Below are positions 3,001-59,587 of a DNA stretch of 64,000 bases, one piece after another (within the stretch, counting starts at the first letter, position 1; the number at the start of each line of letters is the position of its first letter). Below the pieces are notes generated by a model. That model was not told the DNA's origin, made no database searches, and saw nothing but the letters and a program-made list of their open reading frames with translations. The stretch is from an uncultured Bacteroidota bacterium (GTDB lineage Bacteria; Bacteroidota; Bacteroidia; NS11-12g; UBA9320). The stretch is from assembly GCA_937124965.1 (NCBI GenBank), contig CAKZLB010000016.1, forward strand, positions 150,712 through 214,711, given 5' to 3'. The translations under genes and the position numbers were made by a program.

Positions 3001-3510
3001 ATGGACCGGCTTGAGTAATTGAAGCATCCGGTATCGTATCGACATATATCGTAACCGAGTCCATACCAATACAGTAATTACCCGCAGTTCGATAATAAAC
3101 CTTTGCAGAGCCTCCAATTACGCTATCCGGATAGAACAACCCGGTTGAGTCAACATAGTTTCCTCCATAGAAGAAACCGTCATTGTTGTTCACGGTGAGT
3201 TGAGTCACCGTGTCGTTTTTACACACGGCCGCGATCGAATCAATTTGGATTTGTGGCACCGAATCGAGGATGAACAAACCAGTATCCAGTGTAAGACAGC
3301 CAAACGTATCCACCACGCCGTAATAAATCACATTGTTTCCAAAACTTGCCGATTCGGTTGTAACCAAGCCACTGCTATCCACAGCATTATGACCGTAGTA
3401 CCAACCGTTATTCGCAAGCGTTGACAAGCGGAACGTATCTAGCTCCGAGCAAACATTTTCATCCTGGGTGAAAAGGCTGTCGTATTGTTTTGTCTCGGTG
3501 ACTGTAATCG
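1..3510 (-). repeat. Tandem 231-bp coding repeats (about 16 copies of a 77-residue Ig-like unit)
   Basis: Within the giant minus-strand gene, a unit of about 231 bp recurs at regular spacing. The codons for the conserved P-F-C motif fall near 2, 235, 461, 694, 928, 1156, 1387, 1611, 1844, 2076, 2306, 2534, 2765 and 2996, with two more divergent copies near 3225 and 3450. Each unit reads roughly D-S-I-P-D-A-S-I, G-P-F-C, a GG-x-F turn, Y-x-D-S-x-G-x-F-x-P, then Y-x-x-x-D-x-N-G-C-S. The two cysteines are about 54 residues apart. This fits a tandem array of Ig-like folds, each possibly closed by a disulfide. DNA identity between units is moderate, except for one pair about 2.3 kb apart. Confidence 0.9.
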
Positions 3511-6500
3511 TATCGTAGTTGCTCACACAACCAAACTTGTCGGTTACCCGAACGTGGTGTGTGCCGCTTTGATTAAACCATTGAGCTGAATCCGTCACCA
3601 CATTACTCCAAGCGTAGTTATACGTCCGTTCAGATTCTGGTGTGATGACCAAGTACTGCGGATTGTTTTTCGAAATGTGGAAATTTCGTACGCGGTATTC
3701 GTTGTAGTAATACGAGTGAGCCCCAAGACCGAACTTAAAACCACCTTGCGTGCGCGATGTTGGATCGGTATACGTAGTAACCAATACATCGTCTATGTAG
3801 ATTTCAAAGTATCCTGCTTTGTAAACGATGCGGACATTGTGCCATTGTCCGTTATCGAGCACCAGACCAACATTGTTGGTGCTTAATCGACTATTATCCC
3901 ACTCAATGTGAGTACGGTTGTAATAAGAACTCAATGCGACGATGTAACCACCGGAGGCATAGTCGATATTCGTTGGTGTACCAGTCGCAAATAAGTAGAA
4001 ATACAACCCATAATACCGCGCTCCGCTTGAATAGTAGTCAAAGCTAATCTCGAAGCTGTCGGACAGAGACATGGTAGAATCTTCATATTCTATCTGGCCG
4101 TTGGTCGCATTAATGGTTTTAGGCGTTAATGTGACATAGCCATTAAACGCTGAATGACTTGCAGACCCCTTCGTAGTTCCGGTGGTTGTAGCGTTCATCG
4201 AATCCTTAACCAAGTATGGATCGTGGTAACTGATAACCGGCCCTATGTGAACTGAATCACCCACACAGAAAGATGTGTCGCTTGGCAGCGTTAATTCGGG
4301 CAATGGGTTGATTTGAATGTAAACACTATCCTTATACACACAGGCACTTCGCATCTTGAGCGTAAGGTTGTCAAAAAACACGTAACAGTTTGATGTCGCG
4401 GTATTCGTTTTATTGGTTTGAATGATTACCCTAAGCTTTCGTGTTTTTTTAGGCGTGGTTCTGGAGTGTTCAAAGTACTCCCAGTTGTCTGAGTAGTTTT
4501 TCAATCCAGATTGGAAAATACCCAATAACGTTCCACCCGAATCTAGGTATTGTAGGATTACTTGACCTTCATCTTCGTAAGAACTATATCCTCTTATGTA
4601 ACCAGATATAGATGATTTGGCAATACCCGAATCTATATCAACTGAATCAAATGAAACATCTACCTCTTGATACATTTCCAGAATTCCCGTTGATGTATTA
4701 GAGCTATGTCTTGATTCAGCTGAATAGCTACCATCACGTGAACCATAACCAGATGCCCTAGACCAACTTCCGCTTGTTATTGTCCATGAACCTGAACCTG
4801 GGTTACTCTCAAAACTATTATTAGTGAGCAGTTCCGGCTTATCCTGCATACTGTAGATATACATACCGGTTTGATTTACCGTTAAGCTATCGGTTGAGTC
4901 ACCGGTATTCCAAAATCCTTCTCCATGTGACAATGAACCAACAAGCGTGATGCTGTCTCCCAAGCACAGGTTGGTATCGTTGTTTAGTACGTCTATCGAA
5001 GGAGCAAACGGAACATCAATTACAATCTCGATTGAATCCTTACTTCCATAGTTGATATTTTCTACTAGGAGTTTTACCGTGTAATTCTGTTCTATACTTG
5101 ATGGCGGATAAACAATCGTTGGGTTTAAAACTGTGTCTGTAAGGCCATTATATCCAAAATTCCAGAAATATCTGATGCTGTCTCCTCTGGATGAGGTGTT
5201 CACAAACTCGATAACATTCTCTGGGCACGAGGTGTTGTAATAGAAGGCCGCGTTCGGTTGGAATATGTCTACCGGATTACAGGTTGTGTCCGTATTTTCT
5301 TTCGCCTCAACCGACATTTCAAGTTCGCCGGTGGCATTTTCCGGTGTTACAATTTGGACGTAGTACGTTCCTTTGCGGATACAATCCAACACAAATGACG
5401 TGAGGGCATTGTTATTACACGGTGCCGAGGTTAAACTTTTGCAATTACCATAGTACGTTCTGTATCGTATTTCATCAGCTTTTGCGCTGGTATATTCTGC
5501 GAGTTTAAACTCAAGATCAACTTTGGTGGTATCCGTGTAATTAACCACAAACCAGCTCGATTTGTATCCCTTGGGACCATACAAACATCCCATGTCGCTG
5601 CCGTCTTCTCCAAAGTCGGTTCCTATGGTGTGGCAATTCACAATCAACCTGTCAGCTACCTTCTCTAAGGTATCAATTTGTAATGGCACAGCCGCTTCAC
5701 AGAAATCCCCAGTGTGGAAATTGAAGACGAATCTAGGCGTAACATAGTCTACACATTCATGATCATCGCAACTGTTTATTTGAACATAGTACGTTCCCGG
5801 ATTCACACATATGTATCGCGCATACCCCATCTCAGTACTATATCTTGTATAGCTTATTGGCGCCACATAACTCAAGCCGTTAAGAGAGTCTCCATCAACT
5901 ACAGATTTATAAACGCGAATTCTATTAGGATCATAAATGATGGTACTAGAATTACTTGTTGACCTGTAATTGTAGTACATGTAACCGGTTGAATCTATCT
6001 TCAACTTGTACCACAATGTTTTACCGACTGCTGGATCGTTACAGCCATAACGATAGTATGTTCGTCCGTAATCGGTAGTATCTAAGCTACCCCCAATAAA
6101 GTAGCTGGAGTCACCTTCATATATGGTACCTGAACTAAATACACTTGCTCCACCCGCAGCATTGTTTACCTCGTTTGCAGTTGAGTAATAATCAAACTTG
6201 GTTGCCTGCGCCGGATAAAAATCAAAAGCTATTTGAGGCTCCGTATAGCTTCCGCATTGAATACCTCCGCAATGATTTATACTCATGTAATAGGTACCTG
6301 GACGAATACAAGCCATTAAATGCCCATCTGAGAGAAGATTATTGAACGTAGCGTCGGAATTATAACTCGCCGACACATATTCCAATCCATTAATTGAGTC
6401 ACCAATTACCGTTGTGCGATAAAGCCTTATGTAATGTGTATTGTATGAGTAGGTGGTGAGAGTGCTAGACCCCGATAAGTAACTATATAGGAAATTGTAG

Positions 6501-9500
6501 TGGATGTAACCCGATGAGTCGCATTCAAACTTGTACCATACGGTTCCTGCGTTTGCGGTATCGTTGCACCCATAGCTCGAAGAAGTTCGTCCAACATCCG
6601 TGGAATCTAACGTTGAACCTGCAAAATAGGTGCGTTCACCTTTATACAATATTTTGGACGCCAGTTTGGTGTCTACACTTGAATCCGGAATAGTAATTCG
6701 CAAATCGAAACCATCAAAATAAACATTGTGATTGTAGCCCCCAGAATTCTGTTGCGACCTCAGCCTAACTCGAATCTTTTTTGTTCCAGTAGGTAGTGTT
6801 TCACTTCTTGCAACTTGTTGCCAGCTTCCTATGGAAGCAATCCAATTACTTTTATAGGTACTTAAAATTCCACCGGAACTATTCAAATACTCAAGTACAA
6901 TTTGTCCCTTATCCGGATTGGTTTCATTTGCCGATTGGACGTAGCCTGAGAAATTAAGCACCGCTACACCCGCTTGAATTAACGAATCGTATGCGTTTAA
7001 CGATACTGTTTGTGTGAGATCTACCGTATCATTTCGATAGTACCAATAGGACTGGCACCACAAGTGACGCACTCCTTCAATTGGTGTTACGTCCTGTCTA
7101 GCAAAGTTCCACACACCGGATTCTTGAGTCCAGCCATTGTAGCCTTCCATACTCCCATTAACCAATAAGTTAGCATCATTAATCCCGTTGATTAGACCGG
7201 CAGTCGAATAGTAATCAAATTTGGTGTCCGGTATCGTGGCACTGTCATAAGTAACATCCAACCATATATTACGATTAACATTTGGTACTGTTCCTTGGGT
7301 AGGGGAATTGTTCAATTCCACAAGAACATAGTAGCGTATCGGTTTAATCTTGTCACATGCAGGTAATTGGAAACTTACAGTATGATTTGACGACCTGTAA
7401 TGGCAATATGTAAAATCTCGCGATATGTACGTAAGCCCGTCTGATAGTGTTGAATCAATTTTACCAGCTGACTTGAGCGCTGCTATACTCAGGCTTCCAT
7501 CTTCATCCGATTGATATACCGAAAAGTGTATTCCACGAAGCCGATCACCCAAATATGATGAACTGTGCGAATTAAGTTTTACCGTAACATTACCTCTTCC
7601 CTCAACCGTGAAGCTGTACCAAATATTACGTTTTGTGTTATACCGCCATGGATAATATTGTGTCCCGTCTGGATAAGAATAATAACTCGAGTCGTACGGG
7701 TACATCACAACATTCGTATCCCCTGAATAAATCAGCGGTTGCACATAACTGTAACAGCTAGAATATGTCGGATCAGATAGTTCCGCTCCCGTAAAGCACG
7801 TTATCATATCGTGGCTTGCTGGCAAGCTTGTATCGCTAGGGTGAACCTCACCTACTTTACCGTCGTGAGGCACACCATCACCCGGTATTCTTCCAAAGTC
7901 ATAAGCGTTAGCTGCGTGGTCAAATCTTGAGTGGGCCACGCTATCCACATAAACTACAGGCTGAATAGTATGGCGTTGTCCCGATGCTCTTTTTACAAAG
8001 TAAACTAACGAATAGACACCTGCTTGTAAATTGCAAAATTCAACGTAGTTTGCATCGAAGTTACAATCCTGTACTGGACTGGCCGTTGCGAGCTTGGCCG
8101 AATCCTTACGCACATCGAAATTGAAAACCTTTACATCCACACCACTACTCACATTACCATAGATCTTCACGAAAGCATCATTGGCCAAATTGAATGTATA
8201 ATAGACAATATCCGTAGTCGCAGTATCGCAGAGTTGCCCTTTTGGAAAGTGGTTCAACGGTGTATCTAAGTCACACTCTAAAATTTCGATCGGGAACGTA
8301 TACTTCTTCAAATTCAAGTGCATTCCAGCAACCGTACTGTAATTGGTATCGTAGTTAATTGGTTGATTGTTGTTAATCAAACTATCTACATACGCTGCTT
8401 TTGAAGGGCGATAATACTTAGGAGGTGTAACGTTTGATGCTCTGGTTGACATTGCAATCCGATATGGATACTGATACATGTTACGGTAATCGGAAGTACT
8501 CTGAATATCACTGGAATCAAAACCTATTGCAGCATCATTAGAAACCACTATGGTGTACCAACCAGGTGGTAATGGTCGGCAATCTGATGTTGTTCTGGAA
8601 TAACCGGTGCACGACCAATCTGAACCATCTTCATAAAGCTTCAACCCAGACTTGCCATAGCGTATATCACCGGTAAATAACGAGAACCGCCAACCTGCTC
8701 GAACATAGGGGCTGTAGCCTATGTTTATATTGGTTACCATGGTGGAATCCAAATAAAATACATGATACCTATTTTTTCTTCCACAGTATACTCCGTCGAT
8801 TGTATCCGGATTGGAAGCACAGGTGAATGAATCTAAAGCACCTGAGTAGTTGCCATAAGCGTCAATACTGTCAATAAATTCGGCCTTGGCATAGGTGTTA
8901 AACTTAGTTGAGGCTGTATAAAAGTTATAAGAAGGCCTTTCTGTATAGCCAATTACATCATCATCAAACATAGAAACCAACGTGTATTCGCCGGGTTCTA
9001 AACAGTAGGACTGTCTGGTGACGTTGAAGCCCAAGCAATTTCCTACTTTGTTCAAACCTGTAAGTGTATCCGGATACGCAGAAACCGATTGCGCAGCACG
9101 TAAATCAATTGCGTTCCCTTTGTATAGGGCATGCAGTGAGTTGTAGTCGTAATACGGCCTTCCACGATACGCACTGGATAGTCCATTGATATGAACCATA
9201 CCGCTATCAGCATCCCCATCATTGTCCCAATCCCCTACTTTGAACGTCCGGTACATCACCTTTCTGTAATCTCGGCCCGTATCGCAAACATTCTCTGGCA
9301 AAATTCCATCAAAACACGCAACGGTATCGTAGCCGCCATAATAGGTTGTGTAATTATATAAAGGGTTAAGGCTATTGATGGTATCGCCATCTCCTACATT
9401 TCTCAATGCAAATCGGTTTTGATCCGGAAGAGGGAACTGATCTAATTCAAACCTGTAATCTCCACCCAGTTGCATACTTCCGTTACAGTTATTCGAACTA

Positions 9501-10951
9501 TAGTTCCATACGGAGTCGATACCTAAGAGCTGTAACAAGTATTTCCCTGGAGGTAGACAATTAAGATTGAAATCATTTGTCCCTGTTCCTTGTAGAAGGA
9601 TATTACTTGTATCCACAACACCACACGACGATGAAGCCGAATCTGAAAACAACCTAAAACCTAAGTAACTGTAATTCTTGTGGTTGCTGTTGGCTCCGTG
9701 ATATAAATCAATGGTAATATTGGAATACTGCTTTAACTCAAATTCCATCCACTCACTGGCATTGTAGTTCCAATTTCCGAAGGTTACCGGAGAGTTGACG
9801 TTACCACATGCACTATTCGAGAACAGCGATTCGCATGAGAAACCAAAACTAAAATCATTATTCCCCTGAATAACTCCCAAATCCCTTGCCTGGCCTTGCA
9901 ATGGCTTTGGATAACCAGCATACAATGAGGTTTGATCCGCGATTCTAAATCGCATGGTTTTGGTTAAATCCTTATGGTAAAGGAGCTGAACCGAGTATAC
10001 TTCACCTGAATCAAAAAGGCATTTATAATCTTTAACTACATCACGACAATTTGAATAACACGAATGGTTGCTTGACCAATCGTGATAGCTAGAATCAAGT
10101 AACTGCAGAGCTCCGCCATTCCGGCAATCTCCTTTGTAAATTCGATATCCAAACGTGTCCGCCTGAGAGCACGAACTACCGGAACCAACACTAAACTTAA
10201 GTTGGGTATTATCGTGGTTTTGATTTGAGGTAAATACAAACCAAGCGCTTTGGTTGTATTCCAAATAATTTGAGCCGATGTCAGGGAATAGCTCCGTTGA
10301 GTCCTTCACCGTATAACACCCAAGCTCATAATCTACGTAGACATTTTGTGAGCCAGGTTTCCCAACTACCTGATCTCCAAAATCGTATGCACTGTCTTGT
10401 GCATCATATTCAGCGTTAACAACCGCGGGGTATTCATAAGGAAATGAAGTGGTAATATCTAAATACACACGTCCCATCGCACGTGCTTTAGAACTAACCT
10501 GCACCAAATACCATCCCGGTTCCATACACGGGTGGAATGAGCTACCGAACTGGTTTAAGGTTGTAAGTTTAGCAGCAGTTGCTTGGCTTGAAGTAGGTAA
10601 GCATTGGTCTGTAAAGTACGTGGTAAATCCTACGTCCTTGGTGGCTATAGCATTCGCGTTTTGTTTCAGCTCGATATCTATACCCCGCCGTACAGGAAGA
10701 TAAAACTTAAACCAAATCGATTTTTTATCGTTACCAGAAGAAACTAATGAGGAGTGAAAGTATTCGCCAACTTGAAGGGTAGCGCTATCAATGTTGATTG
10801 AATCAGTTCTATAAGTTCCAATTTCGTAGCCACCGGTTCCAAGAGTGATTTCTATACTATTATGACAACTATCGTTAGAAGGTATTTGAGCAAATAAAGT
10901 GTTCCCAAATGATAGAGCAAGGATAAATAAGACAATTCTAACTATACGCAA
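1..10951 (-). CDS. Giant secreted multidomain repeat protein, probable surface adhesin (partial, C-terminus off left edge)
   Basis: The frame is open on the minus strand from a TTG at 10951 to the left edge, giving at least 3650 residues; both ends are in the same frame. The start is set by a signal peptide (MRIVRIVLF... ending LFAQ). Residues about 30-1880 hold roughly ten beta-sandwich modules, each closing with a pattern like C-x-x-P-G-x-Y-x-x-x-I, resembling PPC domains. Two carbohydrate-binding-like jelly rolls lie near residues 1260-1420 and 2040-2200, a PKD-like domain (WNFG) near 1895-1975, and a lectin/LamG-like domain near 2240-2425. From about residue 2500 onward there are tandem 77-residue Ig-like repeats. 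An acidic Asp-rich loop (DWDNDGDADS) sits near residue 574. In this phylum such proteins are usually T9SS-exported adhesins; the sorting domain would lie outside the window. The function is inferred from architecture. Confidence 0.85.
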   Translation of the reverse strand, partial: MRIVRIVLFILALSFGNTLFAQIPSNDSCHNSIEITLGTGGYEIGTYRTDSINIDSATLQVGEYFHSSLVSSGNDKKSIWFKFYLPVRRGIDIELKQNANAIATKDVGFTTYFTDQCLPTSSQATAAKLTTLNQFGSSFHPCMEPGWYLVQVSSKARAMGRVYLDITTSFPYEYPAVVNAEYDAQDSAYDFGDQVVGKPGSQNVYVDYELGCYTVKDSTELFPDIGSNYLEYNQSAWFVFTSNQNHDNTQLKFSVGSGSSCSQADTFGYRIYKGDCRNGGALQLLDSSYHDWSSNHSCYSNCRDVVKDYKCLFDSGEVYSVQLLYHKDLTKTMRFRIADQTSLYAGYPKPLQGQARDLGVIQGNNDFSFGFSCESLFSNSACGNVNSPVTFGNWNYNASEWMEFELKQYSNITIDLYHGANSNHKNYSYLGFRLFSDSASSSCGVVDTSNILLQGTGTNDFNLNCLPPGKYLLQLLGIDSVWNYSSNNCNGSMQLGGDYRFELDQFPLPDQNRFALRNVGDGDTINSLNPLYNYTTYYGGYDTVACFDGILPENVCDTGRDYRKVMYRTFKVGDWDNDGDADSGMVHINGLSSAYRGRPYYDYNSLHALYKGNAIDLRAAQSVSAYPDTLTGLNKVGNCLGFNVTRQSYCLEPGEYTLVSMFDDDVIGYTERPSYNFYTASTKFNTYAKAEFIDSIDAYGNYSGALDSFTCASNPDTIDGVYCGRKNRYHVFYLDSTMVTNINIGYSPYVRAGWRFSLFTGDIRYGKSGLKLYEDGSDWSCTGYSRTTSDCRPLPPGWYTIVVSNDAAIGFDSSDIQSTSDYRNMYQYPYRIAMSTRASNVTPPKYYRPSKAAYVDSLINNNQPINYDTNYSTVAGMHLNLKKYTFPIEILECDLDTPLNHFPKGQLCDTATTDIVYYTFNLANDAFVKIYGNVSSGVDVKVFNFDVRKDSAKLATASPVQDCNFDANYVEFCNLQAGVYSLVYFVKRASGQRHTIQPVVYVDSVAHSRFDHAANAYDFGRIPGDGVPHDGKVGEVHPSDTSLPASHDMITCFTGAELSDPTYSSCYSYVQPLIYSGDTNVVMYPYDSSYYSYPDGTQYYPWRYNTKRNIWYSFTVEGRGNVTVKLNSHSSSYLGDRLRGIHFSVYQSDEDGSLSIAALKSAGKIDSTLSDGLTYISRDFTYCHYRSSNHTVSFQLPACDKIKPIRYYVLVELNNSPTQGTVPNVNRNIWLDVTYDSATIPDTKFDYYSTAGLINGINDANLLVNGSMEGYNGWTQESGVWNFARQDVTPIEGVRHLWCQSYWYYRNDTVDLTQTVSLNAYDSLIQAGVAVLNFSGYVQSANETNPDKGQIVLEYLNSSGGILSTYKSNWIASIGSWQQVARSETLPTGTKKIRVRLRSQQNSGGYNHNVYFDGFDLRITIPDSSVDTKLASKILYKGERTYFAGSTLDSTDVGRTSSSYGCNDTANAGTVWYKFECDSSGYIHYNFLYSYLSGSSTLTTYSYNTHYIRLYRTTVIGDSINGLEYVSASYNSDATFNNLLSDGHLMACIRPGTYYMSINHCGGIQCGSYTEPQIAFDFYPAQATKFDYYSTANEVNNAAGGASVFSSGTIYEGDSSYFIGGSLDTTDYGRTYYRYGCNDPAVGKTLWYKLKIDSTGYMYYNYRSTSNSSTIIYDPNRIRVYKSVVDGDSLNGLSYVAPISYTRYSTEMGYARYICVNPGTYYVQINSCDDHECVDYVTPRFVFNFHTGDFCEAAVPLQIDTLEKVADRLIVNCHTIGTDFGEDGSDMGCLYGPKGYKSSWFVVNYTDTTKVDLEFKLAEYTSAKADEIRYRTYYGNCKSLTSAPCNNNALTSFVLDCIRKGTYYVQIVTPENATGELEMSVEAKENTDTTCNPVDIFQPNAAFYYNTSCPENVIEFVNTSSRGDSIRYFWNFGYNGLTDTVLNPTIVYPPSSIEQNYTVKLLVENINYGSKDSIEIVIDVPFAPSIDVLNNDTNLCLGDSITLVGSLSHGEGFWNTGDSTDSLTVNQTGMYIYSMQDKPELLTNNSFESNPGSGSWTITSGSWSRASGYGSRDGSYSAESRHSSNTSTGILEMYQEVDVSFDSVDIDSGIAKSSISGYIRGYSSYEDEGQVILQYLDSGGTLLGIFQSGLKNYSDNWEYFEHSRTTPKKTRKLRVIIQTNKTNTATSNCYVFFDNLTLKMRSACVYKDSVYIQINPLPELTLPSDTSFCVGDSVHIGPVISYHDPYLVKDSMNATTTGTTKGSASHSAFNGYVTLTPKTINATNGQIEYEDSTMSLSDSFEISFDYYSSGARYYGLYFYLFATGTPTNIDYASGGYIVALSSYYNRTHIEWDNSRLSTNNVGLVLDNGQWHNVRIVYKAGYFEIYIDDVLVTTYTDPTSRTQGGFKFGLGAHSYYYNEYRVRNFHISKNNPQYLVITPESERTYNYAWSNVVTDSAQWFNQSGTHHVRVTDKFGCVSNYDTITVTETKQYDSLFTQDENVCSELDTFRLSTLANNGWYYGHNAVDSSGLVTTESASFGNNVIYYGVVDTFGCLTLDTGLFILDSVPQIQIDSIAAVCKNDTVTQLTVNNNDGFFYGGNYVDSTGLFYPDSVIGGSAKVYYRTAGNYCIGMDSVTIYVDTIPDASITQAGPFCLDAGVQVVQAAVNSGGRFTTTAYIDSAGNFNPNTASVGQHTIFYSFTDGNGCSATDSSIIRVDSLPNAAITSAGPFCENAGVQQLTAAVNTRGVFSSTSYLDTVGNFNPAVAQAGSHQVYYTFTDGNNCSSTDSTIVVVDSIPDAAINAVMRQCENASIVTLTAVNSGGRFSPTTYLDTAGKFDPSIAKSGSHKIFYTITDGNGCSNTDSSIIVVDSIPDASITNTSPFCENDSISKITPSSNTYGSFLQTSYIDSIGNFDPAIAKAGSHKIFYQLTDSNGCSTIDSTIILVDSIPNASIDSAGPFCLNAAPYTLSPSVSGNGRFTSTAFLDTSGNVDPGLATPGSHVVFYFVTDNNGCKNTDSITIQFDTIPDARITKSGPFCQSVDSVQLTPLTNIGGRFHGGIYVDSNGVFNPLTATQGTHPVYYSYTDNNSCSNTDSIEIVVDSLPNAGIQNPGIICKNDSIIQLSSFVSGGHFSGGSFIDSTGKFDPSATTLDSVKLYYNITDGKGCSSSDSILIAIDSIPDASINTLRICENNGIDTLKPKVNDGGVFYKTSYLDTLGVFNPALALSGQHTVYYKFVDGKGCSNVDSTAVTVDSIPDASIISAGPFCRNAEDQQLAAAVNSAGLFQKDIFIDSTGNFSPSFVASDSATIFYTFVDGNGCQNTDSTVISIDTIPNASILPSGPFCKNDTTQLLQSINTSASGRFSATTYLDTVGMFDPWIADVGLHNVFYSVIDGNQCSNTDSFTVRVDSIPDAQISPAGPFCQNGGIQKINPVTNTYGKFILTSFMDTSGNFDPMISGAGSHTIYYSLVDGAGCSNKDSVTILVDTIPDASLQTYGPFCMNDTSVQIMPRLNVGGVFNASSYIDTNGVFTPANANVGTNKVYYQFVDGNGCKNIDSTSITIDSIPDAGINATMPQCENASIITVTTVNSGGRFSPTAYLDTTGNFDPSVAKTGSHKIFYSITDGNGCSNMDSSIIVVDSIPNSKITPAGPFC

Positions 10952-10987
10952 AACGACATCTGTGATGGTTACTTCTTCAATGTCCCC

Positions 10988-10995
10988 CAAAAATA
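10988..10995 (-). promoter_or_regulatory. Candidate -7 box for the giant repeat gene
   Basis: The minus strand reads TATTTTTG, a perfect match to the Bacteroidota -7 consensus TAnnTTTG, 36 nt upstream of the chosen TTG start. No good -33 TTTG was found at the usual spacing, so only the -7 element is supported. Confidence 0.5.
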
Positions 10996-50636: not shown

Positions 50637-51239
50637 ATGGATATAACTCAAATAATAATGTCTCAGTTGGGAGACAATGGTTTAGAAGCAATGGCCAATA
50701 AAATTGGTGCAGACAAAAACCAAACGGCCAAAGCACTTGAAGGAGCAGTTCCAACACTTTTAGGCGCAATGTCAAACAATACTAGCTCAGAGTCAGGAGC
50801 TTCTGGTTTATTGGGCGCTTTAGATCGTGACCATGACGGAAGTATTTTAGATGATGTGATGGGTTTTATTGGCGGTGGAGATGATTCCAAAGGAGCGGGA
50901 ATATTGTCTCACGTTCTTGGGAGTAAACAACCTGCTGTTGAATCTGGACTTAGCCAAAAAACTGGTTTAAACTCTTCTCAAATTGGCAACTTATTAAAAA
51001 TGGTAGCTCCATTAATAATGGGTTACTTAGGCAAACAGAAAAAAGAACAAGGAAGCGGTTTTGACCTTGGTGGAATTGCTGGAATGTTAGGTGGAATGGC
51101 TCAAACTTCTGATAAAAATACTGGATTAGATTTAGGAGACATCCTTAATGTAGTTGGTGGTTTGTCTGGAAATAATTCTGGAAACTCACAAAGCGGAGGA
51201 GGCATCGGCGGAATGTTAGGAAAGCTTTTTGGAAGGTAA
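50637..51239 (+). CDS. DUF937 family protein with EF-hand-like loop
   Basis: This 200-residue protein shows the DUF937 pattern: an N-terminal helical repeat (LEAMANKIGADKNQTAKALE), a Gly-rich middle, and a second helical unit (ESGLSQKTGLNSSQIGNLLK). A DRDHDGSILDD segment near residue 64 has the spacing of a calcium-binding EF-hand loop. The C-terminus is glycine-rich (GGGIGGMLGKLFGR). No signal peptide is seen. The function is unknown. A UUCG-type terminator follows. Confidence 0.8.
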   Translation: MDITQIIMSQLGDNGLEAMANKIGADKNQTAKALEGAVPTLLGAMSNNTSSESGASGLLGALDRDHDGSILDDVMGFIGGGDDSKGAGILSHVLGSKQPAVESGLSQKTGLNSSQIGNLLKMVAPLIMGYLGKQKKEQGSGFDLGGIAGMLGGMAQTSDKNTGLDLGDILNVVGGLSGNNSGNSQSGGGIGGMLGKLFGR

Positions 51240-51262
51240 ATCCTGGATAGAATAAAACTTGT

Positions 51263-51286
51263 AAAGCGACTTCGGTCGCTTTTTTT
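51263..51286 (+). terminator. Rho-independent terminator after the DUF937 gene
   Basis: Stem AAAGCGAC (51263-51270), TTCG tetraloop, stem GTCGCTTT (51275-51282), then a T-run. It is a textbook intrinsic terminator. Confidence 0.92.
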
Positions 51287-51344
51287 ATGTCAAAATATTA
51301 ATAAACAGGTAGTTATAGTTTGAAATCAAATCACGTTTATGGTA

Positions 51345-51375
51345 TTTGAAATAAGTACTTGATTTAGTAACTTAG
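51345..51375 (+). promoter_or_regulatory. Candidate promoter for the DUF1800-DUF1501 genes
   Basis: TTTG (51345-51348) and TAACTTAG (51368-51375) are separated by 19 nt. The -7 box has one mismatch to TAnnTTTG. The ATG is at 51412. Confidence 0.5.
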
Positions 51376-51411
51376 ACAACAAATTTGAAGAGTACTATCT
51401 AATTTCTTTCT

Positions 51412-53016
51412 ATGATTGAAACAGCACAACAAACTGCTCGTACTTTAGCCGGTATTGATGCATACACTGGAACTTGGGGGTACAAAGAAGTCATTCATTT
51501 ACTGAGACGAACCATGTTTGGAGCAGTGAAGACCGATATTGATTATTTCTTGAATAAAAACATGTTGGATTCTGTGGATGAATTGCTTGATCCAAGCTCA
51601 TTTACGCCAGCACCTCCAGTCAATAATTATAATAGTGGACGACTTACAGATCCAGATATTGCTTTAGGCGACACCTGGGTAAACGGACCGTCGAACGCTG
51701 GTCTCAATAATGCCAGAATGAATTCTCTAAGATCATGGTGGACAGGAAGAATGATTCATCAAGATCGAAGTGTTCTTGAGAAAATGACGCTGTTTTGGCA
51801 CAATCATTTTGCAACAGAAATGGCGGTTTATAGGGATCCAATTTTTGGGTACCGATACCAACAGTTATTACGTGCTAACAGTCTTGGAGATTTTAAAAAA
51901 TTTGTCAAACTAATCACATTAGATCCAGCGATGCTGGTTTACCTTAACGGTGAAAAGAATTCAAAACGGGCAGCTGATGAAAATTATGCAAGAGAACTTC
52001 AAGAGCTTTTTACCCTAGGAAAAGGAGAAGGTTCAAAATATACAGAAACTGATGTTCAACAAGCAGCAAGGGTATTAACAGGTTATCGCATTAATCGGAC
52101 AACCTATGAAGGCTATTTTAATCCAAACCTTCACGACGTGGATGATAAGACGTTCTCTTCATTTTATGGCGGCAAAACGATTACTGGAAAATCTGGTGCT
52201 GACGGAGAAAAGGAGTTAGATGAATTGTTGGATATGATTTTCGACAAAGAAGAAGTATCTAAATTTATTTGTAGAAAGTTGTATCGATGGTTTGTGTATT
52301 ATGAAATTGATGCTGCCGCTGAAACAAATGTGATTGAACCATTAGCAGCAATATTTAGAAATAATCAATATCAAATTAAGCCAGTATTAGAAGCGTTATT
52401 AAAAAGTGAACACTTCTACGATGTGGTAAATCAAGGAGCAAAAATCAAAAGCCCCGTGGATTATTCAGTTGGGTTGATGCGACAAAATGTAGTTGATTTT
52501 CCCGATGAGAACAATTTAGTAGAACAATATTATATGTGGACGATTGTTTCACAAGTATGTGCATTGCAACAACAAAATATTGGGGATCCTCCAAGTGTTG
52601 CTGGTTGGCAAGCGTATTACCAATATCCACAGTTTCAAGAGATATGGATTAATACCGATACATTACCAAAACGAAATCAAATATCAGATGTAATGATGCT
52701 GGCAGGAGTTAGTAGATCGGGTCAGAAGATAATAATTGATCCAATTGCGGTTGCTGAAATGTTCAGCAAACCCGATGATGCTGCCACACTAGTTCAAGAT
52801 TTAATTAACTACTACTATACATTAGATGTTAGCACCGACCAAAAAGAGTACATGAAATCCTTTTTATTGTCGGGTCAAAGTGCTTCGTATTGGAAAGATG
52901 CTTGGGACGATTATCAAGCTGATAAAACGAACAATACGCTAAAGACCATCGTCAACACCAGACTACAAGGTCTGCTGAAATATTTAATGAATTTGGCTGA
53001 ATTTCAATTGTCGTAA
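51412..53016 (+). CDS. DUF1800 family protein
   Basis: This 534-residue protein matches DUF1800. Motifs seen: HLLRRTMFGAV near residue 28, MTLFWHNHFATEMAVYRDP near residue 125, ENYARELQELFTLGKGEGS near residue 190, and LYRWFVYYEI plus AGWQAYYQYP further on. No convincing signal peptide or sorting domain is visible, unlike its partner. The next gene encodes DUF1501 18 nt downstream; the two families are almost always neighbours, so joint function is likely. Its biochemical role is not known. A candidate promoter lies just upstream. Confidence 0.88.
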   Translation: MIETAQQTARTLAGIDAYTGTWGYKEVIHLLRRTMFGAVKTDIDYFLNKNMLDSVDELLDPSSFTPAPPVNNYNSGRLTDPDIALGDTWVNGPSNAGLNNARMNSLRSWWTGRMIHQDRSVLEKMTLFWHNHFATEMAVYRDPIFGYRYQQLLRANSLGDFKKFVKLITLDPAMLVYLNGEKNSKRAADENYARELQELFTLGKGEGSKYTETDVQQAARVLTGYRINRTTYEGYFNPNLHDVDDKTFSSFYGGKTITGKSGADGEKELDELLDMIFDKEEVSKFICRKLYRWFVYYEIDAAAETNVIEPLAAIFRNNQYQIKPVLEALLKSEHFYDVVNQGAKIKSPVDYSVGLMRQNVVDFPDENNLVEQYYMWTIVSQVCALQQQNIGDPPSVAGWQAYYQYPQFQEIWINTDTLPKRNQISDVMMLAGVSRSGQKIIIDPIAVAEMFSKPDDAATLVQDLINYYYTLDVSTDQKEYMKSFLLSGQSASYWKDAWDDYQADKTNNTLKTIVNTRLQGLLKYLMNLAEFQLS

Positions 53017-53033
53017 ACATAAACAGGAGAACA

Positions 53034-54629
53034 ATGAAAAGAAGAGATTTTTTAAAAACTACCGCACCGTTTGCGACATTACCAGTACTATTAAACGGAT
53101 TACCTATTCATGCATTAGGAAGCCCAGACACAATGAATGTTTTGAGCAAAGCGTTTGTGAACACCGACCACGTTATGGTGCTGATACAAATGAATGGAGG
53201 TAACGATGGACTAAATACGGTTATCCCAACCGATCAATATTCCAACTTAAGCAAAGCGCGATCAAACGTTATGATTCCATTGGCAAAAGCTTTGGTGATG
53301 GATGGGGTGGACGGAACTTCATTGCATCCTGCAATGACGGGAATGCGTAATTTGTTTAACGACGAGAAGTTATCAATTGTGCAAAGTGTTGGGTATCCTA
53401 ATCCAAACTTTTCGCATTTTAGAAGTACCGATATTTGGCATACTGCATCTGATTCTGACGAGGCATTACACTCCGGTTGGGTCGGTAGATATTTAAGTCA
53501 CGAATTCCCTAATTACCCAATGGGTTTTCCAAATTCAGATATGCCAGACCCTCTTGTTCTACAAATTGGTTCTGTGGTGTCGACGGTTTGTCAAGGGGTG
53601 AGCGTAAACATGGGGATGGCGATTAGCGATCCGTCAGCGTATTATCAATTGGTTACAGGAAATTATACACCGTCTCCAAAAACAAACGCTGGCAAAGAAT
53701 TGGACTATATACGTCAAGTAGCGGGTCAAAGTAACGAGTACGGACAAGCAGTTAAAACGGCAGGTGAAAAAGGGAATAATAAAAGCACAAAATATCCAAC
53801 CGCTGGAGAAAACTCATTAGCAGATCAACTGAAAATTGTAGCTCAATTGATTTCTGGAGGATTGAAGACACGTATTTATGTGGTTAATATCAATGGATTC
53901 GATACACATGCCTCTCAAGTTAGTGCTACTGGAGGAACAGAGACTGGAAATCATGCGAATCTTTTAAGCAATCTCAGCAATGCCATTGATGCGTTTCAAG
54001 ACGATATCGAATTACTTGGACTTAAAGATCGAGTGTTAGGTATGACGTATTCTGAGTTTGGTCGACGTATAATGTCAAACTTTAGTTTAGGCACAGATCA
54101 CGGTGCTGCTGCACCAATGTTTCTGTTTGGAACAAGCGTAAAGCCAGGGATTCTTGGAGACAATCCTACGATTGCAGATACAGTAGCAGTAAATGACAAC
54201 GTTCCAATGCAGTATGATTTTAGATCAGTGTATGCCAGTGTTCTTAAAGATTGGTTCTGTTTAGAAAATACAGAGGTTGATTCGGTTATGCTTAAAACCC
54301 ATCAAACATTACCGTTGCTTAAAGATACTTGTAATACGAATTCAAGTACTCGAAATGAATTACGCAAGAGCGGTGACGCTTATGTAATGAACTATCCAAA
54401 CCCGTTTTCTCATTCTACAACCATACGATTTGAGTCTACTGGAGGGCATATATTACTTCAAGTGTTTAATCCGCAAGGACAAATTATTGATACACTAGTT
54501 GATTCAGAAGTGCCTGTAGGAGAACACTCCGTAGCTTTTACCGCGAATAATCTTGCTCCAGGGACCTATTTTTATAGGTATCAAAATGGAGAGATTCAGC
54601 AAACAAAACCGATGATTCTTGTAAACTAA
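53034..54629 (+). CDS. DUF1501 family protein with Tat signal and T9SS-type C-terminal domain
   Basis: This 531-residue protein starts with a twin-arginine signal (MKRRDFLKTTAPFATLPVLL). The DUF1501 domain, related to the alkaline phosphatase/sulfatase fold, shows VLIQMNGGNDGLNTVIP near residue 48, NFSHFRSTDIWHT near residue 123, NINGFDTHASQ near residue 285, and MTYSEFGRRIMSN with TDHGAAAPMF near residue 340. The last 80 residues (MNYPNPFSHSTTIRF ... KPMILVN) form a type A T9SS sorting domain. The combination predicts Tat export followed by surface delivery. It follows DUF1800 by 18 nt. Confidence 0.9.
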   Translation: MKRRDFLKTTAPFATLPVLLNGLPIHALGSPDTMNVLSKAFVNTDHVMVLIQMNGGNDGLNTVIPTDQYSNLSKARSNVMIPLAKALVMDGVDGTSLHPAMTGMRNLFNDEKLSIVQSVGYPNPNFSHFRSTDIWHTASDSDEALHSGWVGRYLSHEFPNYPMGFPNSDMPDPLVLQIGSVVSTVCQGVSVNMGMAISDPSAYYQLVTGNYTPSPKTNAGKELDYIRQVAGQSNEYGQAVKTAGEKGNNKSTKYPTAGENSLADQLKIVAQLISGGLKTRIYVVNINGFDTHASQVSATGGTETGNHANLLSNLSNAIDAFQDDIELLGLKDRVLGMTYSEFGRRIMSNFSLGTDHGAAAPMFLFGTSVKPGILGDNPTIADTVAVNDNVPMQYDFRSVYASVLKDWFCLENTEVDSVMLKTHQTLPLLKDTCNTNSSTRNELRKSGDAYVMNYPNPFSHSTTIRFESTGGHILLQVFNPQGQIIDTLVDSEVPVGEHSVAFTANNLAPGTYFYRYQNGEIQQTKPMILVN

Positions 54630-54694
54630 CGTTTACCAAACTTTGATGTTACGTATGTGTTTTATACAATAGAATGATTCATTTTTGTTAACTC

Positions 54695-55882
54695 ATGCAT
54701 AAGAACTTAATTCGAGCAGGCCGAATATTTTTGGCCGTCATGTTTCTGTTTTCAGGAATAAGTAAATTGTTATCAATCGCATTCTTTGATGCAATGGTTG
54801 CAGAGCTTTTCCTTGGGCCCAATTATTACGATTTTCCTTCAGGTTTATATTGGACACAAATACTAACGCGAATTCTAATTTCCGTAGAACTTGTCCTGGG
54901 CATAAGTATTTTGGTAGACAAATGGGTGAAGAAAATATCAGTTCCTGCCATCTTTGGAATGCTTTTGCTATTCACCGTTCATTTGTTTTATGAAGGACTG
55001 ACGAGTGACAAAGGATTTATAGAAGGGAATTGTGGTTGTTTTGGTGATGTATTACCCATGAACAATCTGGAAAGCATCATCAAAAATATTGTAGCGATGT
55101 TAGTAGCTGTTTATATTTGGTTGAGATATAAGCACGAAGAAACGTTGGCCGTTTGGGTTTCACCGTTAGTTGTTGGGCTAGTCACCTTTGGAACGTTGTT
55201 GTTTGGGGTAAAGTCGTATGAAGCTGCTGATGAAACGTTGGATATCACAAATACCACTGCGCTGTTAGATTCAAATTTAATTGACAAAGACACATTTAAG
55301 GTGGTTGAACCAACGGTAAAAGATACAGCAAAAGCTACTAAAACTGTTGATGAAAAAGAAGGAACCAACCCAAAAACGATTGAGCCAAGCCCTCAACCAA
55401 AGCCAACAGGAGTTTTAGCTATGTTGGATAAGTTGGGTCCACTTTCCGATGGACAAAAAATGGACTTATCAAACGGTGATGTCGCTGTTTGTTTGTTTAG
55501 CATGACTTGTGGACATTGTCAAGAATCGTATAAGGAGATGTGTGAGTTAAGCAAGAACGCGTCACTTCCAAAATTATACTTAATCAACTTTGGAAAAGAG
55601 TTTGAACAGAAGTATTTCTTTAATCAGGCAGGAGGTTGTAAGCATCCATATTATCGAACGGAGGATTATACAGAGTTTAATCGAATGCTTCAAGGTAAAG
55701 GGTTTCCTAGAATACTTGCTTTAAAAGATGGTAAAATTGTCCAAGACTGGGACATTGATACCTATAATAAAGATGTGTTTACTAAACATTTTGGGATTAA
55801 AGAAAAACCCAAAGAGGAGCCATTAATTAAAAAGAATGATGATAATGACATCAACGATTTGGGCGGCAATCCTTGGGATTAA
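54695..55882 (+). CDS. MauE/DoxX-like membrane protein fused to a thioredoxin-like domain
   Basis: This 395-residue protein has an N-terminal four- or five-helix membrane domain (residues about 8-160) of the DoxX/MauE type. Its C-G-C-F-G motif is near residue 113, as in MauE-like redox proteins. A Pro/Lys/Thr-rich linker (about 185-240) leads to a thioredoxin-like domain with a C-G-H-C active site at residues 272-275 (CLFSMTCGHCQE). The C-terminus is acidic. An electron path from the quinone pool through the membrane domain to the thioredoxin domain is plausible by analogy with VKOR and MauE. It follows the DUF1501 gene by 65 nt on the same strand. Confidence 0.75.
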   Translation: MHKNLIRAGRIFLAVMFLFSGISKLLSIAFFDAMVAELFLGPNYYDFPSGLYWTQILTRILISVELVLGISILVDKWVKKISVPAIFGMLLLFTVHLFYEGLTSDKGFIEGNCGCFGDVLPMNNLESIIKNIVAMLVAVYIWLRYKHEETLAVWVSPLVVGLVTFGTLLFGVKSYEAADETLDITNTTALLDSNLIDKDTFKVVEPTVKDTAKATKTVDEKEGTNPKTIEPSPQPKPTGVLAMLDKLGPLSDGQKMDLSNGDVAVCLFSMTCGHCQESYKEMCELSKNASLPKLYLINFGKEFEQKYFFNQAGGCKHPYYRTEDYTEFNRMLQGKGFPRILALKDGKIVQDWDIDTYNKDVFTKHFGIKEKPKEEPLIKKNDDNDINDLGGNPWD

Positions 55883-55884
55883 AA

Positions 55885-56364
55885 TCACTCAGAACGTAGG
55901 TTGTTAATTTCTTTTTGAAAGTCATACTGCAAGTCCTCATGTAAAGTAGTCATAGCTTTTTTCGCCAACTGCAGTTGTCTGCTGTAAATATTCCAAAGAG
56001 TTACGTTGTTTTCAATCGAGGGTTTTAGGAGTAATAACTGTTTACAAAAGTATAATAACAGTTCAACTTCAGTCTCTTTCTTCTTTGAGTAACGAATGTA
56101 TTTTTTAGTATTTCTTAAAACTTTGCGAATCGTTTTTTTCATCCAATAGTACGTTTGAGTATTTATTTCAGACAATCCTGCATCAATGCTTTCTTTTACA
56201 GAGTCAACATAACCCGATTCATTTGAAGAGTTAAATAATAAGTATGTGAGAAGTTCTTTGTTCTCTTTTTTGAATCGAGATAGATTCAGTACCAACTCTG
56301 TGATTTGATTACCTGATAAATGTTTTAACTCGTCTTTAATCTCTTTTATGGATGCCGTTTTCAT
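55885..56364 (-). CDS. Helical protein of unknown function
   Basis: This 159-residue protein is predicted all-helical and highly charged. It has a conserved-looking N-terminus (MKTASIKEIKDELKHLSGNQ) and a Lys/Arg-rich middle (TIRKVLRNTKKYIRYSKKKE). There is no signal peptide or membrane segment. Similar short proteins occur in many Bacteroidota without assigned function. The stop lies 2 nt from the end of the convergent plus-strand gene, with no terminator between. I do not recognise a named family. Confidence 0.6.
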   Translation of the reverse strand: MKTASIKEIKDELKHLSGNQITELVLNLSRFKKENKELLTYLLFNSSNESGYVDSVKESIDAGLSEINTQTYYWMKKTIRKVLRNTKKYIRYSKKKETEVELLLYFCKQLLLLKPSIENNVTLWNIYSRQLQLAKKAMTTLHEDLQYDFQKEINNLRSE

Positions 56365-56463
56365 GTTGAATGTCCAAAGGTATGAGTATTGATTGAATAA
56401 AACTGTTAGCCAGAATGTTCTGATAATTTGTATCTTGTGGATTCAAGAATTAACAATACTTCT

Positions 56464-56631
56464 ATGATTTTACTTGGTACACCGACTATTTTAGTCCAAT
56501 TTGATATAGTAACAGCGCTAATTTTTAGTTGTATTGTACTTGGGTACTTTCTGCTTTACTTTTACTTCTCGTGGAAGGAAGCGACAAGAAGTAGAGCGGC
56601 TAACATTGGAACTATCTGGAAACAAGCCTAA
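56464..56631 (+). CDS. Small single-pass membrane protein (55 residues)
   Basis: From the ATG at 56464 this frame encodes 55 residues. A membrane helix (ALIFSCIVLGYFLLYFYFSW) lies near residues 19-38, followed by a basic, charged tail (KEATRSRAANIGTIWKQA). A TTG 12 codons upstream also opens the frame but adds a non-hydrophobic extension. A bidirectional terminator follows immediately, which supports a real short gene. It is an orphan between the unknown helical protein and gcvP. Function unknown. Confidence 0.5.
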   Translation: MILLGTPTILVQFDIVTALIFSCIVLGYFLLYFYFSWKEATRSRAANIGTIWKQA

Positions 56632-56644
56632 TATACTTGCAGAA

Positions 56645-56675
56645 AAAAAGCCTGATTGAATCAACCAGGCTTTTT
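56645..56675. terminator. Bidirectional terminator between the small membrane gene and gcvP
   Basis: AAAAAGCCTG (56645-56654) pairs with CAGGCTTTTT (56666-56675) across an 11-nt loop. A-runs and T-runs flank it on both strands, so it can end transcripts from both the plus-strand small gene and the minus-strand gcvP. Confidence 0.85.
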
Positions 56676-56698
56676 AGTATCTATTCTAAGGTGATTGA

Positions 56699-59587
56699 TT
56701 AAGCTTCCGCTGTTTCTTCTTCGTATTCAGACAAAGGTAAACACGCACAAACTAAGTTTCTATCACCGTAAGTGTTGTCAACTCGTGATACTGAAGGCCA
56801 GAACTTTCGGTCTTTTACCCATGGTCTTGGATAAGCCGCCATTTCTCTAGTGTATTTGTGGCTCCAGTCTGACGACATAACACGTTCTGCAGTATGTGGT
56901 GCATTAACAAGCATATTGTCATCTTGGCTATATGTTCCATTTTCTATCGATCGAATTTCTTCACGGATAGATAAAAGTGCATCACAGAATCGATCTAGTT
57001 CATCTTTACTTTCACTCTCTGTAGGCTCAACCATTAATGTTCCAGCAATTGGAAAAGAAACAGTTGGGGCATGATATCCATAGTCCATCAATCGTTTTGC
57101 GATATCTTCAACCTGAACACCAGAATCTGCCTTTAAAACACGTGTGTCAACAATCATCTCGTGTGCCACCGTGCCATTAACACCTGTATATAAAAGCTGA
57201 TATGGCCCATCTAGTTTGGCCTTAATATAGTTTGCGTTAAGAATTGCAATTTTCGTCGCCTCAGCTAATCCTTTTGCCCCCATCATTTTGATATAAGCGT
57301 AAGAAATAAGCAAAATACTAGAGCTTCCAAATGGGGCAGCAGAAATCGCCGACATTGCTTTGTCTCCACCAGTTTTGACGATTGAATGCCCTGGTATATA
57401 CGGCAACAAGTGAGCAGCAACTCCAATAGGGCCCATGCCTGGTCCACCACCACCGTGAGGTATGCAGAAAGTTTTGTGTAAGTTTAAGTGACAAACATCA
57501 GCACCAATTAAGCCAGGATTTGTTAAACCAACCTGTGCGTTCATGTTTGCTCCGTCCATGTAAACTTGTCCACCGTGAGAATGAATGATTGACGTAATTT
57601 CTCTAATTGTTTCTTCATAAACACCATTGGTTGACGGATACGTAACCATGATGCATGCAAGGTTTTCTGAGTGTTGCTCAGCTTTTAGTTTTAAGTCTTC
57701 AACGTCGATATATCCATTATCCAGACATTTAACTACAACCACTTTCATTCCAGCCATCACTGCACTCGCAGGATTTGTACCGTGTGCTGAAGCTGGGATA
57801 ATTGCAATGTTTCTATGATGCTCACCTCTATCTCGGAAATACTCTCGAATTACCATTAGGCCAGCATATTCCCCTTGGGCCCCAGAGTTAGGTTGCATAC
57901 TCATACCTGCAAAACCTGTAATTTCTGATAAATCAGCTGCAAGTTCTTCAATAATTTCATAGTAGCCGTCCACTTGGTTACGCGGAACAAATGGGTGTAT
58001 TGCGTTAAACTCTGGCCATGTCACAGGAATCATTTCTGTAGTGGCATTCAATTTCATTGTGCAACTTCCCAAAGAAATCATAGAATGTGTTAACGACAAA
58101 TCTTTGTTCTCTAAACGTTTGATATATCGTAACATTTCATGCTCAATGTGGTATGAATGAAAGACTTCGTGGGTCATAAACTCCGAAGTACGAACAAAAG
58201 CTTTGTCCCAATCTAAAGTCAAGTCACTTGCCAAATCAGTAGCACTTACGCTCGTGTTAGAGCTTGAAGCAAAACAATCTATTATCGTTTGAATGTCTTT
58301 TAACTCCGTTGTTTCATCAATTGAAATTCCAATAAAATCATTTTCAATTCTGAAGTTAATTTCCTTTGATTCTGACGCTTCAACAATTTTTGAGATTTGT
58401 TCAGAGGTTAAATCAGTAACACGTAATGTATCGAAATACGTTTTATTCGCTTGATTAAACCCTAGTTTTCCTAGAGCTTCATCGAGGACTTTAGCTAAAC
58501 CATGAATTTTACCTGAAATCTTTTTAAGTCCGTCAGGTCCATGATAAACACCATACATTCCAGCCATAATTGCAAGAAGTACCTGAGCCGTACAAATATT
58601 TGATGTAGCCTTGTCTCGTTTAATATGTTGCTCTCTTGTTTGAAGAGCCATACGCAACGCACGTTTGCCTGTAGCATCTTTACTTACTCCTATAATTCGA
58701 CCAGGAATTTGTCTTTTGTAAGCGTCTTTTGTGGCAAAATAAGCCGCATGCGGGCCACCAAATCCTAGTGGTACACCAAAGCGTTGAGTATTTCCAACCA
58801 CAGCATCCGCTCCCCACTCTCCCGGAGAAGTTAACATGGTTAGCGCCAATAAATCAGCAGCAGCTGCAACTAATACACCAGCATTGTGCGCCATTTCGCA
58901 AAATGCTTTATAGTCACGAATTTCCCCATTCGAATCAGGGTATTGCACCAATGCACCGAAAAATGAATCATCCAATGTCGTTGTTGCAAAATCTCCAAAT
59001 ACCAATTCAATTCCAACTGGTACTGCTCTCGTTTTTAAGATGTCAATTGTTTGAGGAAAGATATTTTCATCAACAAAAAATTTATTTACTCCTTTTCTCT
59101 TGCAAACATTATGGAACATTGTCATAGATTCAGCAGCGGCAGTACCTTCATCTAGAAGAGAAGCATTTGCTAATTCCATACCGGTAAGATCCATAACCAT
59201 TGTTTGGAAGTTCAAAAGTGCCTCCAATCGACCTTGAGCAATCTCAGCTTGATATGGTGTGTATTGAGTGTACCATCCTGGATTTTCCATGATGTTTCGT
59301 AAAATAACAGCAGGCGTGTGCGTATTGTAATACCCCATCCCAATATAATTTTTGTACACTTTATTCTTAGAAGCTAACTTCCTCAAGTTTGCCAAGAAAT
59401 CTTGTTCACTCATCGCAGAAGTTATATTCAAGTCTCGATTAAGACGAATATCTTCGGGAATGGTTTTTTCAATTAATTCAGACAAACTACCGATGCCAAT
59501 AGTCTCCAACATAGCTTTTTGATCTGCTGTTGAAGGTCCGTTGTGTCGATCCTTAAAGAAATCGATTTGACTTACGTTTAATTGCAT
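56699..59587 (-). CDS. gcvP: Glycine dehydrogenase (decarboxylating), P-protein
   Basis: This protein of about 962 residues is the PLP-dependent subunit of the glycine cleavage system. Motifs: FKDRHNGPS at the start, [19 protein letters not shown] near residue 80, the [15 protein letters not shown] segment in the second half, and the PLP-lysine site [20 protein letters not shown]. The single-chain (alpha plus beta fused) form is kept. An ATG 20 codons upstream (59647) exists, but the -7 box TATTTTTG at 59610-59617 lies inside that extension. The ATG at 59587 gives the typical N-terminus ([17 protein letters not shown]). Confidence 0.95.

Follow-up and report, generated by a model that had tools for sequence, protein, structure and literature searches.

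The window analyzed here (64,000 nucleotides from an uncultured Bacteroidota bacterium) encodes a protein in which a MauE/DoxX-type membrane domain and a thioredoxin fold are joined in one chain, each part carrying a pair of cysteines that is invariant among the aligned relatives; the fusion is real, conserved, and spread widely but patchily. We consider it on balance probable that this protein functions as a one-chain thiol oxidase anchored in the membrane, in which electrons would pass from client thiols to the CxHC of the thioredoxin domain, from there to the CGC of the membrane domain, and finally to quinone. Between a disulfide-generating and a reducing function we decide for the former.

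Architecture of the Fusion Protein

The N-terminal part can be assigned by profile, as MauE (Pfam PF07291) matches residues 5-143 with 61.6 bits against a cut-off of 27 (E 1.2e-16), and DoxX exceeds its own cut-off slightly (27.5 against 23.6 bits). Hydropathy gives five hydrophobic segments (11-29, 56-74, 81-99, 125-143, and 151-169), and the AlphaFold2 model places helices at 2-26, 28-40, 48-73, 78-103, 124-144, and 157-169. The mean pLDDT is 79.6 for the whole protein, modeled from 33 sequences, and 87.5 for the membrane domain modeled alone.

The second half was recognized by its fold. No thioredoxin family passes the Pfam cut-off in the full-length protein, and the C-terminal part alone gives at best 11.6 bits for Thioredoxin, under the cut-off of 23.5. 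A profile of the 33 relatives, compared with solved sequences, found 29 distinct matches at E up to 1 (best 1.3e-6). Thioredoxins, glutaredoxins, and disulfide isomerases make up most of these, next to a few unrelated proteins, and none of the stretches passes by itself. In the model, residues from about 240 to 366 have the thioredoxin-like order of strands and helices; VIA-align superposes residues 236-368 on DsbE-like proteins, ResA, DsbF, and others with Z 12.6-13.1 and rmsd 2.5-2.8 over 123-127 aligned residues in the best 12 rows, and Foldseek finds ResA (E 3.6e-4). The domain shares with the ResA/TlpA/DsbE-type thioredoxins the fold, a CxxC, and a proline that we take to be the cis-proline of thioredoxin folds (Pro338), and differs from them in remaining below the Pfam cut-offs and in being carried on a MauE anchor. 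Those thioredoxins have CxPC where the fusion has CxHC.

Table 1. Features of the fusion gene and its upstream neighbors (window coordinates).
Feature	Coordinates	Strand	Remarks
MauE-thioredoxin fusion gene, 395 aa	54695..55882	+	Open frame, ATG start, no internal stop
Membrane domain, residues 1-177	54695..55225	+	MauE (5-143) plus a fifth hydrophobic helix
CGCFG motif, residues 113-117	55031..55045	+	Loop joining helices 3 and 4, predicted periplasmic
Disordered linker, residues about 178-236	55226..55402	+	Low pLDDT
Thioredoxin-fold domain, residues about 238-369	55406..55801	+	Structure comparison of the model
CGHC active-site motif, residues 272-275	55508..55519	+	C272, H274, and C275 invariant
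Pro338	55706..55708	+	Invariant in 33/33 aligned order sequences
DUF1501 protein, upstream neighbor	53034..54629	+	PF07394, 6.3e-21; T9SS tail (PF18962, TIGR04183)
DUF1800 protein, upstream neighbor	51412..53016	+	PF08811, 1.1e-98

The sequence-only reading of this stretch had recognized the union of the two domains, with a CGCFG in the one and a CGHC in the other, and in this it is borne out by Pfam, by the model, and by the structure matches. It had also described the connection as a Pro-rich linker; a linker there is, disordered and with a pLDDT below 50 at 178-221 and 225-228 (the low-confidence stretch as a whole being 178-228), but to call it Pro-rich is generous, as its 59 residues include 5 Pro, mostly near the end, next to 11 Thr, 8 Lys, and 12 Asp/Glu. 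Its length is not conserved, since the distance from CGCFG to CGHC, 159 residues in the query, ranges from 94 to 188 across 58 fusions. The C-terminus itself (window 55796-55879), which follows a disordered stretch, closes with ...PW or ...PW(D/E/K), conserved in 19 of the 33 aligned sequences, an ending found in close relatives and absent from more distant ones.

The solved structures closest to the membrane domain raise a different possibility, that the MauE bundle binds a client on which the thioredoxin half makes or shuffles disulfides, as an assembly factor comparable with NACHO/TMEM35A in receptor assembly. This protein is the best solved match for residues 1-147 (window 54695-55135) of the whole model (Z 11.3, 123 aligned, rmsd 3.4) and for the membrane domain alone (Z 10.7, 122 aligned, rmsd 3.4), in the latter case some 3 units above the next row (Z 7.6). 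The match is to be taken as a lead, however, since according to the tool's own note a Z below about 13 may reflect a common arrangement of helical bundles; Foldseek finds nothing for the membrane domain alone at E 0.001, no client is known, and the neighboring genes are not conserved between clades, all of which makes an assembly factor improbable. Among the solved folds, VKOR and GGCX appear at noise level only (VKOR of Synechococcus, 4nv5, with Z 5.5, rmsd 3.6, and 107 aligned residues, amid unrelated bundles), and DsbB is absent from the solved-fold matches listed for this domain, which excludes nothing. The fusion protein has no Pfam match at E 0.1 to VKOR (PF07884) or to DsbB (PF02600).

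Distribution and Conservation

Some match to the protein was obtained in 86 of the 108 genomes sampled from the order, and the full fusion is found in at least 36 of them, that is, in 33 (the host genome included) as chains of 300-450 aa, and in three more that were verified later (G044, G049, and G051) and stand outside the 33-sequence alignment. Fragments or split frames from G004, G015, and G018 (rows L060, L067, and L071) were also left out of this alignment, and rows L048 and L065 entered alignment A2 at full length. Most of the other matches in the order cover the membrane half only, in frames of ~500-570 aa that by their length resemble BT_3928. In the phylum sample, 188 of 395 genomes match the profile and both halves are present in at least 26, again counting the host; 25 of the 29 phylum loci taken in full contain both motifs, and four contain CGCFG but no CxxC.

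All 33 aligned order sequences keep the four motif cysteines unchanged, at identities down to 21%, while the remaining cysteines of the query recur irregularly in the same set (C266 in 26, C283 in 9, and C315 in 10), so that the motif pattern is not a product of chance. The complete list of invariant positions comprises F17, K24, F31, R59, E65, F93, G107, C113, G114, C115, G117, L125, K130, N131, C272, H274, C275, F308, and P338. A broader set of 58 fusions combines 33 order sequences, chosen for their length and a BLAST hit (a BT_3928-like row without CxxC, L070, was dropped), and 25 phylum sequences, selected by the presence of both motifs, with L103-L106 excluded because they have no CxxC. 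Within it the membrane motif is CGCFG in 56 and CGCMG in 2, the thioredoxin part has CxHC in 57 chains and CEDC in the remaining one, and 20 of the chains contain only four cysteines in all.

The BT_3928 family (NF045576) shares with the fusion a MauE-type domain with its CGC and a C-terminal part that can be aligned. Membership of the fusion itself in that family was considered and rejected, since its 62.3 bits fall short of the cut-off of 250 and it matches only positions 4-164 of the 358 in the model, the match being confined to the N-terminal half. The host genome encodes a separate BT_3928 member elsewhere, with 322.7 bits and above the cut-off. In proteins of the BT_3928 type, or like it, CxC is present and CxxC is absent in all six cases. 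With hhalign, the C-terminal portion of these proteins can be laid over the thioredoxin domain including its proline (P 1.6e-4, probability 51%), and we take BT_3928 to be a relative whose thioredoxin half has probably died. Two fusions of one genus in the phylum sample (L134 and L137) are located near a gene that by eye starts like triose-phosphate isomerase, and also near a protein that by eye is like the neighbor of the host's own BT_3928 gene. A third MauE-like protein in the host genome (L069:6164-7369, 401 aa), for which there is no BT_3928 match, is situated at the Pfam cut-off of 27 (28.6 and 26.6 bits).

Topology and Proposed Mechanism

The mean charges of the loops in the 33 sequences follow a positive-inside pattern over the five hydrophobic segments: 1.3 K/R and 0 D/E in the N-terminus, 0.6 and 2.9 in loop 1-2, 2.4 and 0.2 in loop 2-3, 1.0 and 1.8 in loop 3-4, and 1.8 and 1.1 in loop 4-5, for which the query (with 1 K/R and 2 D/E over the residues counted) is weaker than the mean. 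The predicted topology is thus one with the N-terminus inside and the C-terminus outside, in which the thioredoxin domain, following the fifth helix, would lie outside and both cysteine pairs would be periplasmic. A cytoplasmic thioredoxin domain had been named in the sequence-only reading as an outcome that would tell against it, and hydropathy and charge bias predict the contrary.

The same reading had proposed a self-contained relay, analogous to the fusions of VKOR with thioredoxin, able either to generate or to reduce disulfides; a relay of this kind remains the best reading, and two pairs that are both predicted to be periplasmic would fit it well. We infer that the two pairs exchange electrons, and in which direction, with a quinone at one end and client proteins at the other. 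The steps could have the following order: (i) client dithiols would be oxidized by the disulfide of CGHC in the thioredoxin domain; (ii) once reduced, CGHC would move, by virtue of the flexible linker, to the CGC pair, which is predicted to lie in the loop that connects helices 3 and 4 on the periplasmic side; (iii) finally, CGC would pass both electrons on to a quinone bound within the MauE bundle, from where they would enter respiration.

Several lines of evidence favor this reading. Both pairs are invariant in the 33 aligned sequences, 20 of the 58 fusions hold just those four cysteines, and the third residue of the active site is His in 57 of 58. This residue is His in the oxidizing DsbA (CPHC) and PDI (CGHC), and Pro in reducing thioredoxins. 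In DsbD, electrons travel from cytoplasmic thioredoxin through cysteines of the protein; since all the invariant cysteines of the fusion are on the predicted outer side, an electron path of the DsbD/CcdA style is not to be expected, and in the absence of a conserved cysteine route to the cytoplasm a membrane carrier would be the natural partner. With a quinone as that carrier, thermodynamics favors the flow from thiols to quinone. It is for these reasons taken together (outer-side cysteines, the thiol-to-quinone flow, and His as the third residue) that the oxidase is chosen. Among the points against it are two facts: the CGC need not serve the fused thioredoxin, since the BT_3928-type relatives keep their CxC without a CxxC, and the nearest solved folds, among them ResA and CcmG, include reductants.

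This last point leads to the reverse reading, a reductase in which quinol or another donor would reduce CGC and so keep CGHC reduced, be it for the repair of exported proteins or for the assembly of haem or copper sites. ResA, CcmG, and TlpA, all among the nearest solved folds, are indeed mostly reductants, but the third active-site residue is not Pro, there is no conserved cysteine on the cytoplasmic side for a relay driven by thioredoxin, quinol donates electrons poorly to most disulfides, and the host genome already has two DsbD_TM proteins; a reductase is therefore improbable.

Gene Neighborhood

The gene of the fusion adjoins that of the DUF1501 protein in the window, as the earlier reading had noted with the suggestion of a role in the folding of exported proteins. 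The adjacency is real: the window, four congeners, and one other genus all have DUF1800-DUF1501-fusion in this order and on a single strand, with a gap before the fusion of 65 bases in the window and 53-167 bases in the five relatives. This amounts, however, to 6 of the 57 loci, which does not sustain a functional tie, and the co-occurrence with DUF1501 that had been proposed as a check is uninformative at the level of genomes, as DUF1501 is present in 92 of 105 in the order. In L146, L148, L149, and L150 the same BLAST cluster appears at other positions, where the proteins may share only a sorting tail. The DUF1501 protein starts, by eye, like a twin-arginine substrate, and its three cysteines are kept in all 6 loci, the second and third standing 24 residues apart. 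The interval 51200-56700 contains 9 promoter-like sites where 17.3 were expected, of which one (54643-54670, + strand) falls in the gap before the fusion gene; terminator-like sites number 8 where 3.4 were expected, all of them outside that gap. These counts carry no weight in the argument. A search of plasmids with the fusion gave no match, and a search of contigs gave a single locus, in the same place as in the congener G035.

The proximity to a giant Cys-rich surface protein, adduced earlier in support of the same role, does not hold either, as the two genes are separated by 43.7 kb, a stretch in which rpoB/rpoC and ribosomal genes are recognizable by eye. That protein (window 1-10990, - strand) looks exported, has more than 3663 aa with 84 Cys (2.3%), and runs off the start of the window.

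A second genus of this family shows a different setting: one protein family, defined as a BLAST cluster, occurs upstream of the fusion at a distance of at most three genes in all 12 of its loci, mostly with 461-474 aa, and its member in L042 (L042:5531-6955) combines a metallo-beta-lactamase fold with rhodanese domains. The same locus has a TauE/SafE gene and a Crp-type gene nearby, and a Crp-type regulator family is found near the fusion in 6 loci. These neighbors are suggestive of a device for sulfane sulfur or thiosulfate, in which the thioredoxin half would strip sulfur from persulfides or thiosulfate outside the membrane and the MauE half would pass electrons to quinone, in the manner of a thiosulfate:quinone oxidoreductase with an exported thioredoxin. 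A precedent of sorts is the Bacteroides fragilis operon of DoxDA and the exported thioredoxin TrxP, which according to an excerpt from PMC6158253 is upregulated in a bmoR mutant after exposure to oxygen; as excerpted, it is similar to the fusion in placing a quinone-linked membrane protein of the DoxD type beside an exported thioredoxin, and dissimilar in that these are separate genes and belong to the DoxD/DoxA families, not to MauE. The rhodanese neighborhood, however, was encountered in a single genus; across the other 45 of 57 loci it does not appear at a distance of up to four genes (some contigs ending sooner). The fusion protein matches neither DoxD (PF04173) nor DoxA (PF07680) at E 0.1, so that a sulfur device seems to us rather unlikely.

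Function from the operon was rejected as a general rule, as the neighbors differ by clade (DUF1800-DUF1501, metallo-hydrolase-rhodanese, mutL in L055, and others), and housekeeping genes, recognized by eye, adjoin the fusion in many loci of the phylum. The lack of a fixed partner gene suits a general redox device better than a factor devoted to a single client.

Relation to Known Systems

MauD is a thioredoxin-like protein. The nearest described parallel is the unfused pair of MauE and MauD in Paracoccus, which serves in the maturation of methylamine dehydrogenase, MauE having been speculated to act in the formation of its disulfides (excerpt of PMC7794033, citing van der Palen 1997). The PF07291 membrane domain and, as far as the excerpt goes, the speculated role in disulfides are common to both; the fusion differs in being a single chain and in having no mau genes that could be recognized by eye among the neighbors examined. 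The link of MauE to disulfides has been speculative so far, and the fusion offers direct biochemical access to it; moreover, as both halves of the relay are contained in one protein, its function can easily be tested in one step. A VKOR-DsbA fusion complements an E. coli dsbA dsbB mutant, according to an excerpt of PMC12453122.

The fusions of VKOR with thioredoxin or DsbA in Synechococcus and Clostridium, as they appear in the same excerpt, likewise attach a bundle of the quinone type to a thioredoxin fold with CxxC; the MauE fusion has no PF07884 match and presents a CGC in place of the CXXC plus CXnC of VKOR. It may well work, with somewhat better than even likelihood, as the VKOR-thioredoxin fusions or the DsbA-DsbB pair do, in the absence of any detectable membership in VKOR or DsbB. 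No description of a MauE-thioredoxin fusion was found among the matches listed from the open-licence literature. Architectures of this type do appear in domain databases, and thus the arrangement is probably not new to them even if undescribed.

A wider proposal, which we regard as possible but short of probable, is that these fusions constitute a third class of disulfide-forming enzyme, quinone-linked and made in one piece, with no sequence kinship to DsbB or VKOR, that would supply periplasmic disulfides in those Bacteroidota devoid of both; BT_3928 would then be a descendant or a sister in which the thioredoxin active site was lost.

Redox Context of the Host

What is at stake in such a proposal is how disulfides are formed outside the cytoplasm in these bacteria, or whether any are. 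Profile searches of 105 order genomes find DsbB in 0 (6 of 14 in the control set) and VKOR in 3 (3 of 14 in the control set), a near vacancy that counts in favor of the oxidase; in the phylum sample, VKOR is present in 92 of 395 genomes and 303 are without it. The host genome has no match to VKOR PF07884 at E 0.001, and two frames of 744 and 224 aa match DsbD_TM, a further point for the oxidase. DsbD normally accompanies an oxidizing pathway.

In the phylum sample, moreover, VKOR is found in none of the 26 genomes listed with both halves and in 92 of the 369 others (Fisher p 0.0012, uncorrected for kinship), a difference in favor of the oxidase for which kinship may nevertheless account, since the genomes with the fusion are clustered in few families. 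Against the oxidase stands one genome of the order, G051, that holds the fusion together with a VKOR-type protein. The VKOR segment of that genome is contained in a frame of 451 aa (L163). Likewise, the full fusion was not found in up to 72 of the 108 order genomes, about two thirds, many of them incomplete, among which DsbB is absent and VKOR nearly so, and such bacteria evidently manage without it.

If oxidative folding were widespread, exported proteins might be expected to prefer even numbers of cysteines. Across 839 kb of the host genome, 187 proteins are predicted to be exported, of which 69 have an even number, 77 an odd number, and 41 none. This gives no indication of wide oxidative folding and stands against a broad role, the parity test being a weak one with localization assigned by a simple home-made rule. 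On 464 kb, a first rule gave 33:33 (even:odd) for proteins with signal peptides and 2:9 for lipoproteins, and the rule that was kept gave 39:47. The test decides nothing here, since the E. coli K-12 control reaches only 18:10 (p 0.09), two VKOR-bearing Bacteroidota are without signal (12:14 and 19:34), and one VKOR-bearing Bacteroidota shows an unexpected even excess in its cytoplasmic proteins (44:28, p 0.04). As to the cysteine content itself, exported proteins of the host are hardly poorer than cytoplasmic ones (0.87% vs 0.99%), unlike those of the two VKOR-bearing Bacteroidota (0.27% vs 1.27% and 0.41% vs 0.89%).
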